From a virus, in the IMG/VR virus record IMGVR_UViG_3300050821_002311, positions 1 to 27,283 of that record: a DNA stretch of 27,283 nt; one strand, given 5' to 3'. Each line of letters opens with the position of its first letter. Within the stretch, counting starts at the first letter, position 1. Below the pieces are notes generated by a model. It was not told the DNA's origin. It did no database searches and saw only the letters and a list, made by a program, of their open reading frames with translations. Positions 19,757-26,762 of the stretch are shown here, one piece after another. The position numbers were made by a program, and so were the translations under genes.

Positions 19757-20962
19757 ATGGCCGTAACGCTCCAAGAGCTGCTCCTCCCGACCGTAATTTT
19801 GGACCTGATCTCTCGCGTCCGTCCCGGTCAGGGTCAGCTAGGCCGGTGGCTTGGCTTTCAACCGAACCGCTTCAACCCGGAAGATGTGACCTTGAGCGGG
19901 CCGGCGACGGAAAGCGGCAAGACGCGAAACGCGACGGTACGCATCTTCAATGCTACGCGTGTACCGTCTACCTTCCGGGCACCGGCGACGGCCCCTGACG
20001 TGATCGTGCGGAATCCCGTAGCGACCTTCCAAGTCGCGTGTGCTCGTATGCACTCGAAAATTCCGCTGAACTGCGAGGAGCTTGGCAACCTCTCGCCGAT
20101 GATCGGCCCGAATTCGCAGATCGACCCAAACGGCCAGAGCTACGTCAGGGCACAGACAAACTACATCGCCACGCGCTTCGGTCATGGCGTGGAAATGCTC
20201 TCAGCGGGCATGATTCGCGATTCGATGTACCTGATTCAAAGCGGGGAGCAATGGGTTCCAAGTTTCACGGCACCTACCAGCAGCCAAGTCGGTTTCCAGA
20301 TCACATTCCAGATTCCGTCCGGCAACAAAAACCAGCTCAACATGCTGGGGACCGGAAACATCATCACCGTTTCATGGGCCAACGTCGGGGCGGATATTCT
20401 CGGCAACCTCATGTCGATCAAAGCTGCGTTCACACAGCTCACCGGCTACACGATGCAGGATATCTGGATCAACTCGATCATGTGGGGAAACATCCTCAAG
20501 AACACCGGCATCCGCAATACGGGCGGCTCCGCGAATACCGTCTATGCCGAATACCGCTTTGAGAATGACACCGGCATGGATGGCGAGCCAAACGGCGGCT
20601 ACTACGGCGTCTTGCGAGCCGATCCTACGGTACGTTGGCACATCAACGACCAGATTCTAGCCCTCGGCGGCAATCAGCTTGACCCGATCATCAGCTATTC
20701 GACAGCCGTGGCTAACAAAGTCATCCCGGACAACATGGCAATCTTCTGCACGCCACCGAATCCGGAAGTATGCAAGATGTACCAAGGGGCCGAGCCGGTC
20801 ATCGAGAATCCGGGAATGCCGATGACGATGCGGAGTGGCTACTACTTCTGGCATGAGCTGACCACGCAACCGAGTTCAGTTGATCTCATTGGCCTCCTGA
20901 ATTGCCTTCCGGTACTAAATAATCCCTACGTATTTGCACCTGCGACCGTAACTGGTTTTTGA
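19757..20962 (+). CDS. major capsid protein (lambda gpE-like)
   Basis: A 401-aa HK97-fold coat protein of the lambda E family. Support comes from length, position after the decoration gene, and segments typical of the family: the N-terminal helix LQELLLPTVILDLI, the E-loop region (TFRAPATAPDVI), MIRDSMYLIQSG, the late VRWHINDQILALGG, AIFCTPPNPEVCKMYQGAEP and the closing SGYYFWHELTTQPSSVDLIG. AGAGGAAA precedes the ATG. Its last 37 bases are overlapped on the other strand by the HNH gene. Confidence 0.85.
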   Translation: MAVTLQELLLPTVILDLISRVRPGQGQLGRWLGFQPNRFNPEDVTLSGPATESGKTRNATVRIFNATRVPSTFRAPATAPDVIVRNPVATFQVACARMHSKIPLNCEELGNLSPMIGPNSQIDPNGQSYVRAQTNYIATRFGHGVEMLSAGMIRDSMYLIQSGEQWVPSFTAPTSSQVGFQITFQIPSGNKNQLNMLGTGNIITVSWANVGADILGNLMSIKAAFTQLTGYTMQDIWINSIMWGNILKNTGIRNTGGSANTVYAEYRFENDTGMDGEPNGGYYGVLRADPTVRWHINDQILALGGNQLDPIISYSTAVANKVIPDNMAIFCTPPNPEVCKMYQGAEPVIENPGMPMTMRSGYYFWHELTTQPSSVDLIGLLNCLPVLNNPYVFAPATVTGF

Positions 20963-21822
20963 TGAGGACATTGGCCAAACATAGATTTGGCAAGATTGCA
21001 GTTGTAACAGAGGACTTGAAGATGGTCAGGATAGCCGAGACGTTTCATACGGGCATAAAAGTAAATTCCTAGCCCGTTTATTTCTCGGTCTTTCTTGCCG
21101 TCATTGTTGATGTGGTCCAGAGAAAGAAATTCTATGTGTGTGACATCACAACCTGGACACTGGCATTTGAGATTTCCGTTACTGTAATGCGTCAGGACTT
21201 CTAGTTTTAGTTTGCGGCGGTAAGCAAGATGAAGTTTACGAGCCATTGGCCTGTAGCATGTTTTACAAATAGCCATAAGGCCAAAACGCTTATGACCTTT
21301 GTTTTTCCTGAAATTCTCTGCATCATATGGCTTTTCTTCGCCGCATTTGGTGCAGACTTTGGTAGTCGGTTTGACGAGTCCTTCGCCGCGAGCAAGGCAA
21401 CCGCAACTTTTGCTTCGTCCATTGCGGAGCGATTGAGCCGTGATAACCTTTTGGGTTTTGGCTGGACAGGAACATTCGCAGAGCCAAGCGGTATGAGTGC
21501 CATAGATATGTCCAGCACGCGACAAGACGGTAAGCCGTCCGAATACTTGGCCGGTCAGGTCCATGAGTCCAGTGTTAACCTTCAGACCTTCGGCCCAATG
21601 CTTTTTCTTGCAGGCACGCGAGCAGTATTTCCGAACGCCTTGAGAACGCGGGAACGTGAACTTTTTGGAACAGCAAAGGCAAACGTAATCGACGTTGAAC
21701 GGAAGGCTTTTGTCGTATGACCTCGACGCCTTCTTTTGACAGTCCTTGGAGCAATACTTAGCCCTTGATTTGCAGAACATGCGAGATATGAAAGGTTTGT
21801 TACAGAACTGACATAACAACAT
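20926..21822 (-). CDS. free-standing HNH homing endonuclease with multiple zinc motifs
   Basis: The only convincing minus-strand gene (298 aa). Two N-terminal Cys-rich fingers (C4-C7-C24-C28; C48-C51-C67-C71) are followed by LTGQVFGRLTVL (89-100) and SCGCL (139-143), a DNA-binding module common in phage homing enzymes. Next come KVCTKCGEEKPYDAENF … CKTC (156-189) and the HNH nuclease: C222/C225, LDHINND (H237), and LCYNCNLAK (C272, C275, N274). It sits directly behind the major capsid gene, ending inside it by 37 bases, and has its own promoter and an AAGGAAA ribosome site. It is a mobile element that cuts uninvaded relatives. Confidence 0.85.
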   Translation of the reverse strand: MLLCQFCNKPFISRMFCKSRAKYCSKDCQKKASRSYDKSLPFNVDYVCLCCSKKFTFPRSQGVRKYCSRACKKKHWAEGLKVNTGLMDLTGQVFGRLTVLSRAGHIYGTHTAWLCECSCPAKTQKVITAQSLRNGRSKSCGCLARGEGLVKPTTKVCTKCGEEKPYDAENFRKNKGHKRFGLMAICKTCYRPMARKLHLAYRRKLKLEVLTHYSNGNLKCQCPGCDVTHIEFLSLDHINNDGKKDREINGLGIYFYARMKRLGYPDHLQVLCYNCNLAKSMFGQCPHQKPVTVAGANT

Positions 21823-23410: not shown

Positions 23411-23908
23411 ATGGGTGCGACTTACGCTAGTACGACGCCGATTGCGACCGTGGACGGCATTCCATATGCCAAGGCTGCGGTCTTGCCTGCCGGTCCTACG
23501 GGCGAAGCGGATATCTTCAACGGCGTTCAGGGCGATCCTATCCCGATCGCCTGGGAAGCGGTTATCACGGCGTTTGTCAAGCTCACGTATACTGGCTCGC
23601 CTTCTGGAAACACGGCTACCTATGTTGTCATGCAGACCTCTTACGACGGCGGCACGACATGGGTAGATGTGGCGTGGTTCAAAGACACGAATACGAGCGG
23701 GACGAATCTTTACGTCATGAGCGGCGGGATTATCGCGAATAGCTCGATTAACAATACGCGGGCACTCGGAACGTCACCGGCGACTAACGGTAGCAACGCG
23801 ATTCCTCTTGGTGGAGTTGTGCGGTTTGTCGGGCAAACGACGCTTACGGGCGGCAGCAGTCCTACGGCAGTCGTTAGCCTCTGGTACAAGCTCCAGGGAC
23901 TTCGTTAA
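23411..23908 (+). CDS. beta-rich virion protein, 165 aa
   Basis: GAGAGGG precedes the ATG. The protein is Thr/Ser/Gly-rich; residues ~45-100 (VITAFVKLTYTGSPSG … YVVMQTSYDGGTTWVDVAWF) show the DGGTTW motif of beta-sandwich virion domains, and the end (AVVSLWYKLQG) is a closing strand. Together with the 22640 gene it forms a pair of sandwich proteins between connector genes. The TAATG junction couples it to the next gene. Exact role unknown. Confidence 0.6.
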   Translation: MGATYASTTPIATVDGIPYAKAAVLPAGPTGEADIFNGVQGDPIPIAWEAVITAFVKLTYTGSPSGNTATYVVMQTSYDGGTTWVDVAWFKDTNTSGTNLYVMSGGIIANSSINNTRALGTSPATNGSNAIPLGGVVRFVGQTTLTGGSSPTAVVSLWYKLQGLR

Positions 23909-24684
23909 TGGACGTGCATGTCAAAGGCAAGCGAAGTGAAATCTTGGCACTGGTCAAGAAGCTGCCTGCGATATGCCAAGGGAACGGAGAAGCGAAACAG
24001 GCACAGCAAGCATTGCTCATAAGACTTGGGCAGACGCTGCTTTTCAAAATCAAGGAAGCATTCGTTGTAAAGTCACGTGGAGGAACGGACGATTGCGGAT
24101 TGAAATGGCCTCCCCTGAAGAAATCGACCGTGGCGTATGGAAGGCGGCATCCTGGCGTTCTCTATCCAGGTTCAAAGCGTGCTCCATTCGCTCCGTCATG
24201 GATGCTGACCGAACCGCAGAGAAAAAGATGGTGGGCTATCTATCGTGAATTGCAGGGAGCAAAACCATCCGGGGCCGCTTATCACGCGAAAGCAAACCAG
24301 GGGAATGATTATGCGGCGGCAAGAGCATGGATAATCCTTAAATCAGAGGGGGCGAAAACTCTGATGAGCGAATATGGGGATACGCAAGTTGATATCCTTC
24401 GCTCGACTGGACTTTTATTGACTGCATTATCTCCTGGGGTAGCGGCAGAAGGCCAATTGCCTCCGAGGATTGAAGGGCAGGTATTCAGGCCCGGAAAGAA
24501 CGAAGTGATAGTCGGCACGAATCTTTACCGTGGGATCGTGGCACATGAAGGACGCGGACACAATCCGCAGCGGAGACTTTGGGCGACTCCTGACAAGTGG
24601 CCGTCAACGTGGTGGGGTGACTTGCTCGATCAGGCCAAGCAAGGAATTGTCGAGATAACTCTTTTTATGTTATGGCGGCGATGA
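23908..24684 (+). CDS. phage virion morphogenesis protein (gpG-like)
   Basis: A 258-aa protein like the Mu gpG/virion morphogenesis family that completes the head-tail joint. N-terminal helices contain ALLIRLGQTLLFKIKEAF. GLKWPPLKKSTVAYG (about 64-78) matches the usual W-x-P-L segment. The later VDILRSTGLLLTALSPG, VIVGTNLYRGIVAHEGRG and NPQRRLW fit the family's conserved C-terminal strand and RRL motif. A ~70-residue inserted segment (about 80-150) makes it longer than typical. The ATGA overlap with the phosphatase gene is clear. Confidence 0.65.
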   Translation: MDVHVKGKRSEILALVKKLPAICQGNGEAKQAQQALLIRLGQTLLFKIKEAFVVKSRGGTDDCGLKWPPLKKSTVAYGRRHPGVLYPGSKRAPFAPSWMLTEPQRKRWWAIYRELQGAKPSGAAYHAKANQGNDYAAARAWIILKSEGAKTLMSEYGDTQVDILRSTGLLLTALSPGVAAEGQLPPRIEGQVFRPGKNEVIVGTNLYRGIVAHEGRGHNPQRRLWATPDKWPSTWWGDLLDQAKQGIVEITLFMLWRR

Positions 24685-25253
24685 TTATTTACCTGTGTCG
24701 CCATGGCCATCGTGATCCAGGAAGTGACGACTTGGCAAGTCCCGTCAAGTTATCTTATCGCGGTCAAGAGCAAGCGGCATCATTGAGCAGTTTTATTTTT
24801 GAGGTGAAGCCGCAGATACTTTTGAGCAGCCCGAAATATCGTTGCGTGCAGACGGCATTGCCAACGTCAAAAAAGACGGGTTTGCCGATAAATGTCTGGC
24901 CGCTTTTGTGTGAACATGATTCCTACGGGCCGATAAATTACAGTGAAGCGGCTATCATAGACCTGGGGGCGTTTGTTGAGAGACGGCGAAAATTGCCGGA
25001 TACGCCAGAGCGCGAGCAATTAGATTTCGCTTACAAGCGAGCGATGGAAGCATTGATGCAAATGCGGGCTTTGAATCTGGACAGGATAGTGGCATTTGCT
25101 CATGATTGCTTTAACTCTGTTTTCATCTGGGCGTGGCGTAATCTTGGATGCTTGCAAGAAAAGGATCGGTACTATCAGAACGAATGTTGTGTCAACGTCC
25201 TCGAAGATGGCAAAGAACCGCAGATAAACATGACGGCAATAAAGGGCTTTTGA
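24681..25253 (+). CDS. histidine phosphatase (phosphoglycerate mutase-like)
   Basis: ATG 24681 makes an ATGA overlap with the preceding stop; ATG 24672 would add three residues. The product (190 aa) starts MIIYLCRHGHRD, with the RHG catalytic motif at 7-9 (phospho-acceptor H8). R54 in LSSPKYRCVQTA, E78 in CEHDS and H141 in FAHDC complete the active-site set of the histidine phosphatase superfamily. It probably dephosphorylates a small molecule, nucleotide or protein; the substrate is unknown. All catalytic residues are present, so it should be active. It is an unusual metabolic enzyme in a connector/tail operon. Confidence 0.85.
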   Translation: MIIYLCRHGHRDPGSDDLASPVKLSYRGQEQAASLSSFIFEVKPQILLSSPKYRCVQTALPTSKKTGLPINVWPLLCEHDSYGPINYSEAAIIDLGAFVERRRKLPDTPEREQLDFAYKRAMEALMQMRALNLDRIVAFAHDCFNSVFIWAWRNLGCLQEKDRYYQNECCVNVLEDGKEPQINMTAIKGF

Positions 25254-25254
25254 T

Positions 25255-25668
25255 ATGAACGCAGAACACGTAATCGAACCGAAGAATCAGGCTAATGGCG
25301 TAGTCCGGATGCCACGACGCGGGATGGTGCAATTCGCTTTCGGCGACGATGCTCCTTTCACTTTCGACGCAATCGAAGTGTGGGATGCCTTTGTTGTTTT
25401 CGACACGAGCAACCGCAATGAAAAAGGCGAAGTGCCTACCGATCAACTCGTCGGCTATGGCCTCGCTCTACGTTCTTTCGTGCAAAACACGGTCACGGAT
25501 GCTGGCAAGGCGTGTGGCGTTAATCCGCCGCAACTGACGAACGCCGAGGCCCGCATCTTTATCGGCCATTTGCGGGAGGAGGTGGAGAAGCTCCGAAGTT
25601 TTTTCGCACCGAAATCGGCAGAACAGCCATTATCGCCGCCGAGACAGGATATCAAGTTCGAGATGTAA
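25255..25668 (+). CDS. short product of a -1 frameshift gene (possible tail assembly chaperone)
   Basis: The zero-frame product is 137 aa (MNAEHVIEPKNQANGVVRMP … FTFDAIEVWDAFVVFDTS … AEARIFIGHLREEVEKLRSF). After residue 117 it ends in a low-value tail (APKSAEQPLSPPRQDIKFEM). The slippery site lies at the end of the conserved-looking part, so most ribosomes should yield this form and some the 211-aa fusion. Many tail assembly chaperones (lambda G/GT) work this way. No sequence match to gpG was recognised, and the tail terminator follows rather than precedes it, so the family call is tentative. Confidence 0.6.
   Translation: MNAEHVIEPKNQANGVVRMPRRGMVQFAFGDDAPFTFDAIEVWDAFVVFDTSNRNEKGEVPTDQLVGYGLALRSFVQNTVTDAGKACGVNPPQLTNAEARIFIGHLREEVEKLRSFFAPKSAEQPLSPPRQDIKFEM
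25599..25605 (+). promoter_or_regulatory. candidate -1 ribosomal frameshift site T TTT TTC
   Basis: In the reading frame of the 25255 gene the codons are AGT TTT TTC, which gives the canonical X XXY YYZ heptamer T TTT TTC. Slipping back one base continues at CGC 25605 into a frame open until 25889. A weak CGGC…GCCG stem downstream may help. Confidence 0.65.
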
Positions 25669-25889
25669 AAAAACTCATCGGCGATGGAGCGTTCGCGGAA
25701 ATGGTCATGATGGATTCGGTTAGCGTAGTTCGTGCATTCCGTATGCTCCATGACCCTGATTACGTTGGTGGAATGAACACGGAAAACTATCTGGAACTGT
25801 GCAAGGCGGCGGGGTACTCGGAAGAATCGAGTCAGAAAGCAGCCTCCGAATGGGCGGTCAAGCGGCTACGCAAGGGTTTGGACGTATGA
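25605..25889 (+). CDS. -1 frame extension of the 25255 gene
   Basis: Read after the slip, this adds 94 residues: RTEIGRTAIIAAETGYQVRD … FRMLHDPDYVGGMNTENYLE … AASEWAVKRLRKGLDV. The sequence is helical and clearly protein-like from the first codon. The first ATG in this frame is not until 25701, 32 codons in, so ordinary initiation would lose a coding-quality segment. The fusion protein is 211 aa. The stop overlaps the next ATG. A T6 indel error in the sequence would give the same picture. Confidence 0.6.
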   Translation, partial: RTEIGRTAIIAAETGYQVRDVKKLIGDGAFAEMVMMDSVSVVRAFRMLHDPDYVGGMNTENYLELCKAAGYSEESSQKAASEWAVKRLRKGLDV

Positions 25890-26197
25890 GCCTGGCATCG
25901 TTTGACGGACTGGATAACCGCCGCGAAGTTATGATCTTGTTCCAGCGGTTAGGGAAGCATCTACCGGAAAAGCTAGCCGATGCGAAGCGAGCTAAGTTTC
26001 TGGCTAGTTTGATACCTCACAGCGTAGGGGCGTTAGCTCCCGCTCCTTTGATAGTCCCGCCCTGTGACGCCGTAGGAGCATACGGATTGTTCATCGCGAT
26101 CTGCAACGCTCTTGAGGTTCCGATAGACAAGGCCGCAAAGATGCTGGACGAAGAGGTGCGGAAAGATGATGGACGCGTTACTCTTCTCTGTCCGTGA
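25886..26197 (+). CDS. hypothetical protein, 103 aa
   Basis: ATG 25886 overlaps the preceding stop, favouring it over the in-frame ATG 25799. The sequence is MSLASFDGLDNRREVMILFQRLGK … EKLADAKRAKFLASLIPHSV … AYGLFIAICNALEVPIDKAAKML, largely helical with one Pro/Ala-rich loop. It may be a small assembly factor; no family recognised. It overlaps the next gene by 32 bases. Confidence 0.55.
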   Translation: MSLASFDGLDNRREVMILFQRLGKHLPEKLADAKRAKFLASLIPHSVGALAPAPLIVPPCDAVGAYGLFIAICNALEVPIDKAAKMLDEEVRKDDGRVTLLCP

Positions 26198-26762
26198 CGG
26201 ACTAAGGGCGGCAGGGTTTGGTTATGGGGTTCCGGAGGTAGACATTCGAGACAACGGAATGCCTCCCCCACGATGCGGGAATTTCTTTGTAGCCGTGCAT
26301 CCGGGATCGACACGCAACGGAGCGATGAACAACCTTGACGAGTATTTCGATTTCAAGCTGACACTGACCCAGAGAGTTTCGGTGCCCTTAGACAGAATCG
26401 GAGACACGGCTTTAGCGAGCAAACTTGCGAGACAGAGCGGCAAAGGCAATCCGTCTTTCAATGCTCGCCTTGAACAGTTACGAGCCTGGGGGTCGATGAA
26501 TTGGGAGAGGACGGTTTTAACTGGCCGCACGCCGAATAGTGCGAATGACAACATCGCGGCATGGGCACCGGTAGGAACGACGCAGGTTTATGGATTCGTT
26601 GAGCCAGCTCATTACACCGGAGCGGAGTTTCCAAGATTAGTCGGCGGCGATTGGTTCACGGCGGATGCAAGTGCGGATGACGTTGGCTTGAAAGCGGAGT
26701 TGAGTTTCGCGAATGCAAGACGCCTTCAACCGCAATTACTCGCAGTAGGTCCGTTTATCTGA
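26166..26762 (+). CDS. probable tail terminator/tail completion protein
   Basis: ATG 26166 lies 7 bases after GAGGTG, so it is preferred to ATG 26169. The 198-aa protein has the order expected of tail terminators: an N-terminal helix (ALLFSVRDGLRAAG), a strand with PRCGNFFVAVHPG, YFDFKLTLTQRVSVP, and a late strand-rich part (GVP-like linker, YGFVEPAHYTGAEFPRLVGG). Tail terminators cap the tail tube at the head end and follow gpG-like proteins in gene order. The match is by layout only. Confidence 0.5.
   Translation: MMDALLFSVRDGLRAAGFGYGVPEVDIRDNGMPPPRCGNFFVAVHPGSTRNGAMNNLDEYFDFKLTLTQRVSVPLDRIGDTALASKLARQSGKGNPSFNARLEQLRAWGSMNWERTVLTGRTPNSANDNIAAWAPVGTTQVYGFVEPAHYTGAEFPRLVGGDWFTADASADDVGLKAELSFANARRLQPQLLAVGPFI

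Follow-up and report, generated by a model that had tools for sequence, protein, structure and literature searches.

Comparative evidence for a −1 frameshift in a gene pair of G/GT layout lying upstream of the tube-like gene in a phage clade

Analysis of a 27,283-base virus record (the whole stretch of DNA examined, referred to below as the window) and of 18 related contigs revealed a gene in the neck-tail module that is almost certainly expressed with a −1 frameshift, as judged from sequence comparison. We consider it probable that the locus encodes a G/GT-type pair of proteins, made by programmed −1 frameshifting and with a chaperone-like function in tail assembly. The contigs represent a phage clade that has no close isolate in the collections searched, and this clade has kept the slip through divergence to 24–38% identity to the window protein (where measured) and through changes of the heptamer, with the gene placed elsewhere than in the phages compared below.

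The slippery site and the two reading frames

The zero-frame, G-like gene spans positions 25255–25668 on the plus strand and encodes 137 amino acids in an open frame with homologues in the 18 other contigs. Its codons 115–117, AGT TTT TTC (25597–25605), hold the slippery heptamer T TTT TTC, which is read directly at 25599–25605 (plus strand), is in phase for tandem slippage and lies 20 codons short of the stop of the 137-residue frame. The −1 frame extension, T-like and homologous in all relatives, is open from 25605 to 25889 (plus strand) for 94 codons followed by a TGA stop at 25887–25889; its earliest start codon is the ATG at 25701, 32 codons in. The predicted fusion is therefore of 117 + 94 = 211 residues. 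The position of the heptamer, the absence of a start from the first 32 of the 94 open codons and the lengths of the fusion and of the short form had all been given in the initial annotation, and they are reproduced exactly on re-reading the sequence and its open frames.

In-frame ribosomes would produce the 137-residue protein. When both tRNAs pair anew on T TTT TTC and the ribosome moves back by one base, the 211-residue protein would be made, comprising the same first 117 residues and a helical C-terminal domain of 94 residues. By synonymous resampling, an in-frame shifty heptamer is expected somewhere in the window gene by chance in about 62% of cases, so that the heptamer alone is weak evidence and the case rests on comparison.

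The comparison set comprises 19 lineages, the window and its 18 relatives. The first relative, L002, was found by scanning with the 137-residue protein. It is 27% identical, has CCT TTT TTC in the corresponding codons and carries a homologous −1 extension. A scan of genome contigs with a profile of the terminator-like gene yielded no relative. Eight more lineages, reached through the terminator-like gene and small alignments, have the two-frame layout in each case (L003, L004, L006, L007, L008, L011, L012 and L017). As a test of prediction, the tube-like gene was used as bait, and all nine of the further contigs obtained in this way, L041 among them, have the zero-frame gene, continue into a correctly phased −1 extension and show a shifty heptamer where the two frames meet.

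In all 19 lineages, then, the zero-frame gene is accompanied by a homologous −1 extension of 88–98 codons, and an in-frame heptamer of the form X XXY YYZ lies precisely where the homologous extension starts. With the amino acid sequence kept fixed, a shifty heptamer would occur at the junction with a probability of 0.04–0.36 per lineage; the product over lineages is approximately 10^−19.5 if these are independent, a strength that is overstated because the lineages are related. The heptamer is T TTT TTC in 11 lineages (the window, L002, L004, L006, L008, L017, L025, L026, L027, L036 and L041), T TTT TTT in four (L011, L012, L024 and L033), A AAT TTT in three (L007, L034 and L040) and T TTT TTA in L003, and all four variants are compatible with tandem slippage. 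Since the heptamer itself varies, the conserved trait is evidently slippage and not one particular sequence. The carriers of A AAT TTT cluster with L036 in the tree. L027 reads CGA AAT TTT TTC, which contains two overlapping heptamers, and a switch from one heptamer to another therefore has a natural intermediate. The 19 natural variants would allow the requirements of the slippery site to be tested directly.

The proposal of the initial annotation that a −1 frameshift is programmed here is thus well supported, the slippery site and the −1 extension persisting in all 18 homologous contigs. Neither of the two outcomes against which it had warned, a miscounted T run or homologues in a single frame, appeared across the 19 lineages. 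On this comparison, a slip back by one base on T TTT TTC appears established.

Two other routes into the −1 frame were weighed. RNA polymerase, rather than the ribosome, might slip on the T run, and the junctions do include T runs of 6–8 and, in L007, an A run of 8. However, L034 and L040 have the same layout with only A AAT TTT and no run longer than 4, and the frame phase of X XXY YYZ fits at 19 of 19 sites; we therefore regard polymerase slippage as very improbable. The second route is that there are two genes, the distal one with an internal start, or that a single gene has been split by a mistake in the T run, made in sequencing or in assembly. An internal start could be provided by the ATG at 25701 or by later ones in the −1 frame, but the first start codon of the extension lies 20–64 codons in across all 19 lineages, and in every one of them conserved residues of the extension come before any start. 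This preceding stretch, which has the form R.AILxREYG in many lineages, would be made only by the slip because no start codon comes before it. As to error, its recurrence at one spot in 19 assemblies is not expected, and three of these are without a T run. Internal initiation and sequence error together are scarcely credible as an explanation. The zero-frame tail beyond the slippery site, of 20–33 codons, is itself conserved, and both endings therefore seem to be under selection.

The elements that might stimulate the slip are less clear. A Shine–Dalgarno-like sequence, GAGGAGGT, at 25576–25583 (plus strand) lies 15 bases 5′ of the heptamer, with an estimated hybridisation energy of −12.3 kcal/mol. 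Against synonymous resampling, such sites have a mean z of −0.74 over the 19 lineages and several lineages are without one; a role for GAGGAGGT as a frameshift stimulator is suggestive only. No hairpin, pseudoknot or consensus RNA structure downstream of the site is conserved among the lineages.

Gene order around the frameshifted pair

Upstream of the pair in the window is a Neck1 or tail completion-like gene (23908–24684, plus strand), whose homologue in L009, 52% identical to the window protein, matches phrog_26 at 2.2e-08. Inserted between this neck gene and the G/GT gene is a histidine phosphatase gene (24672–25253, plus strand; PF00300 at 6.4e-19), which is outside the frameshift unit and went unmatched in the ten further loci with which the window was compared. 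Downstream is gene X (25886–26197, plus strand; 103 residues), the start codon of which shares the sequence ATGA with the stop codon of the −1 frame. In every lineage gene X is the first gene recognised 3′ of G/GT, in some with an insert intervening. It is followed by a gene of 198 residues (26166–26762, plus strand), which has homologues in all loci, has no family match and is called terminator-like from its position.

The order in the clade begins with a capsid gene (phrog_29), a Gp36-like adaptor gene (PF07030, just below the cut-off), two unnamed genes and Neck1 (phrog_26). These are followed by G/GT, gene X, the terminator-like gene, small Cys-rich genes, the tube-like gene and the tape-measure-like gene, and, 3′ of the last, by two more tail-region genes, a portal-like gene with a weak Portal_Mu match and, in the loci read that far, a Mu F-like gene. 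The tube-like gene, of 175 residues, is named from its position, and the tape-measure-like gene, of 247–877 residues, from position together with weak matches to PHROGs tape measure families.

The initial annotation had placed the gene 5′ of the terminator-like one and suggested that the order might be unusual; the placement is borne out in 18 of the 19 lineages. In the exception, L040, G/GT is 3′ of the terminator-like gene and still 5′ of the tube-like gene, which G/GT precedes in every lineage that has it. In no lineage holding both the tube-like and the tape-measure-like genes does G/GT lie between them. Moreover, in most of these lineages the distance from the tube-like stop to the opening of the tape-measure-like frame is at most 13 bases, which leaves no room for a second G/GT between the two genes; gaps of 205–621 bases occur in three lineages, L024, L027 and L034.

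The module has received a variety of insertions. In L003, the closest relative, G/GT and gene X are separated by an inserted intradiol-dioxygenase-like gene (L003:5200–5706; PF00775, 8.9e-16), a cargo that is unusual in the tail module of a phage. Two long open frames lie between gene X and the terminator-like gene in L025 (L025:3983–6830), and these resemble, by eye, a phosphoadenosine-phosphosulfate-reductase-type protein and a transposase. There are inserts near G/GT in other relatives as well. In the window, an open frame on the minus strand between the capsid and adaptor genes (20926–21822) has Cys pairs and, by eye, an HNH-like motif; it is perhaps a homing endonuclease. The extremes of size among the tape-measure-like proteins of the relatives are found at L007:7745–10378 and L009:9463–10206, and within the L007 copy lies a domain that matches phrog_2859 at 4.3e-25.

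Structure predictions and the function of the pair

In its AlphaFold2 model the zero-frame protein has two strands and three helices, and its confidently predicted core spans approximately residues 21 to 110; the −1 extension was modelled as an all-helical domain with a pLDDT of 87.6. Scans of both halves and of the fusion against Pfam and PHROGs gave no match, nor did a tblastn search with the fusion against 50,697 phage records, nor searches of phage records with the capsid, tube-like and 480-residue tail proteins. A profile of the zero-frame protein reached only chance level against PDB sequences. Single-sequence hhalign comparison with the tail proteins of lambda, HK97, Mu and Jumbo was without power, failing for the tube-like protein too. 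Tail assembly chaperone families are very diverse in sequence.

Fold searches gave weak matches throughout, with E-values no better than 0.05. The model of the N-domain matched nothing above background in the PDB; in BFVD its weak matches include proteins annotated as tail assembly chaperones, at an E-value of 0.28. The extension found no match in the viral fold search. In the PDB it was aligned with helices of TrpRS at Z-scores of up to 6.7, a likeness that we rejected as being a common arrangement of helices.

The tape measure protein of lambda is bound by gpG, and gpGT, which is rare, connects the tape measure to the tube protein; the tail assembly chaperone frameshift is conserved in long-tailed phages (PMC5009743). 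Like gpG/gpGT, the present pair comes from one gene of the neck-tail module, with a −1 heptamer near the 3′ end and a short and an extended product. It differs in having no detectable sequence similarity, and in lying upstream of the terminator-like and tube-like genes whereas the lambda pair is between tube and tape measure. The chaperone occupies that same position in HK97, in Mu and in the Gordonia phages Jumbo and GordTnk2, although the tube gene of GordTnk2 carries no name in its annotation. HK97 gp13/14 and the pairs of Jumbo and GordTnk2 resemble the present one in having a Neck1 or gp10-like gene nearby, and they are annotated in two pieces; they differ from it in being between the tube and tape measure genes. 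Of the features of G/GT chaperones, the pair thus shows a short and a −1 extended form from one gene, the layout that the initial annotation had recognised, and lacks the position between tube and tape measure.

Chaperone function is nevertheless the best reading, as the pair has the two-length layout, belongs to the neck-tail module and has no competing candidate. By analogy with lambda, and from the architecture and context, the N-domain would be the part that binds the tape measure protein, and tube subunits would be recruited by the extended form. In the present clade the pair, followed by gene X, is found 3′ of the neck gene and 5′ of the tube-like gene, not in the interval from tube to tape measure. 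We have withheld the family label because the positional hallmark is missing and the sequence and fold matches are absent or weak. Between the alternatives that the initial annotation had posed, a displaced chaperone or a different frameshifted family, architecture, the weak fold matches and the lack of another candidate favour the chaperone-like one as the more probable.

The frameshift may alternatively be real and the product not a chaperone, the two lengths being those of a neck- or connector-associated structural protein, both of which enter the particle. Virion proteins made in two lengths by frameshift extension occur in other phages (PMC5009743, PMC9022992), the gene is beside the neck and terminator-like genes and not the tube and tape measure, and no chaperone family is matched. 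The extension, however, is all-helical and not Ig-like, no other G/GT candidate is seen in these tail modules and the N-domain has its chaperone-like, if weak, fold matches; we judge such a structural protein rather unlikely. An undescribed frameshift family is equally doubtful. In that case G, the fusion and X might form a three-part assembly factor at the neck or terminator end, moving as a unit, that has taken the place of the classical chaperone or acts at another step in head-tail joining. If the pair is a chaperone, as we favour, then the frameshift can stay fixed while gene order changes, and annotation based on position will miss such genes.

Relationships of the clade

The nearest isolates by portal protein are the Gordonia phages Jumbo and GordTnk2, whose portals are approximately 19–24% identical to those of the clade, and we found no description of the clade or its gene order in the open-access papers searched. 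The sole hint of a host is the filing of L041 (JAIEPT010000397.1) under a Gemmataceae MAG, where a binning error is possible. A sheath was searched for in the records of eight relatives and gave no match. The Gp36-like adaptor, Neck1, weak Portal_Mu and Mu F-like genes of the clade recall the head-neck module of Mu. Unlike in Mu, the portal and Mu F-like genes come after the tail genes and the frameshifted gene precedes the tube-like one.

Individual records illustrate the placing of these genes. The portal-like gene of L013 (L013:13327–14832) is 3′ of the tail genes and not before the capsid gene, and in L009 the tail genes are likewise succeeded by the portal-like and Mu F-like genes (L009:12307–15578), the latter of which is fused to a C39-like peptidase domain.
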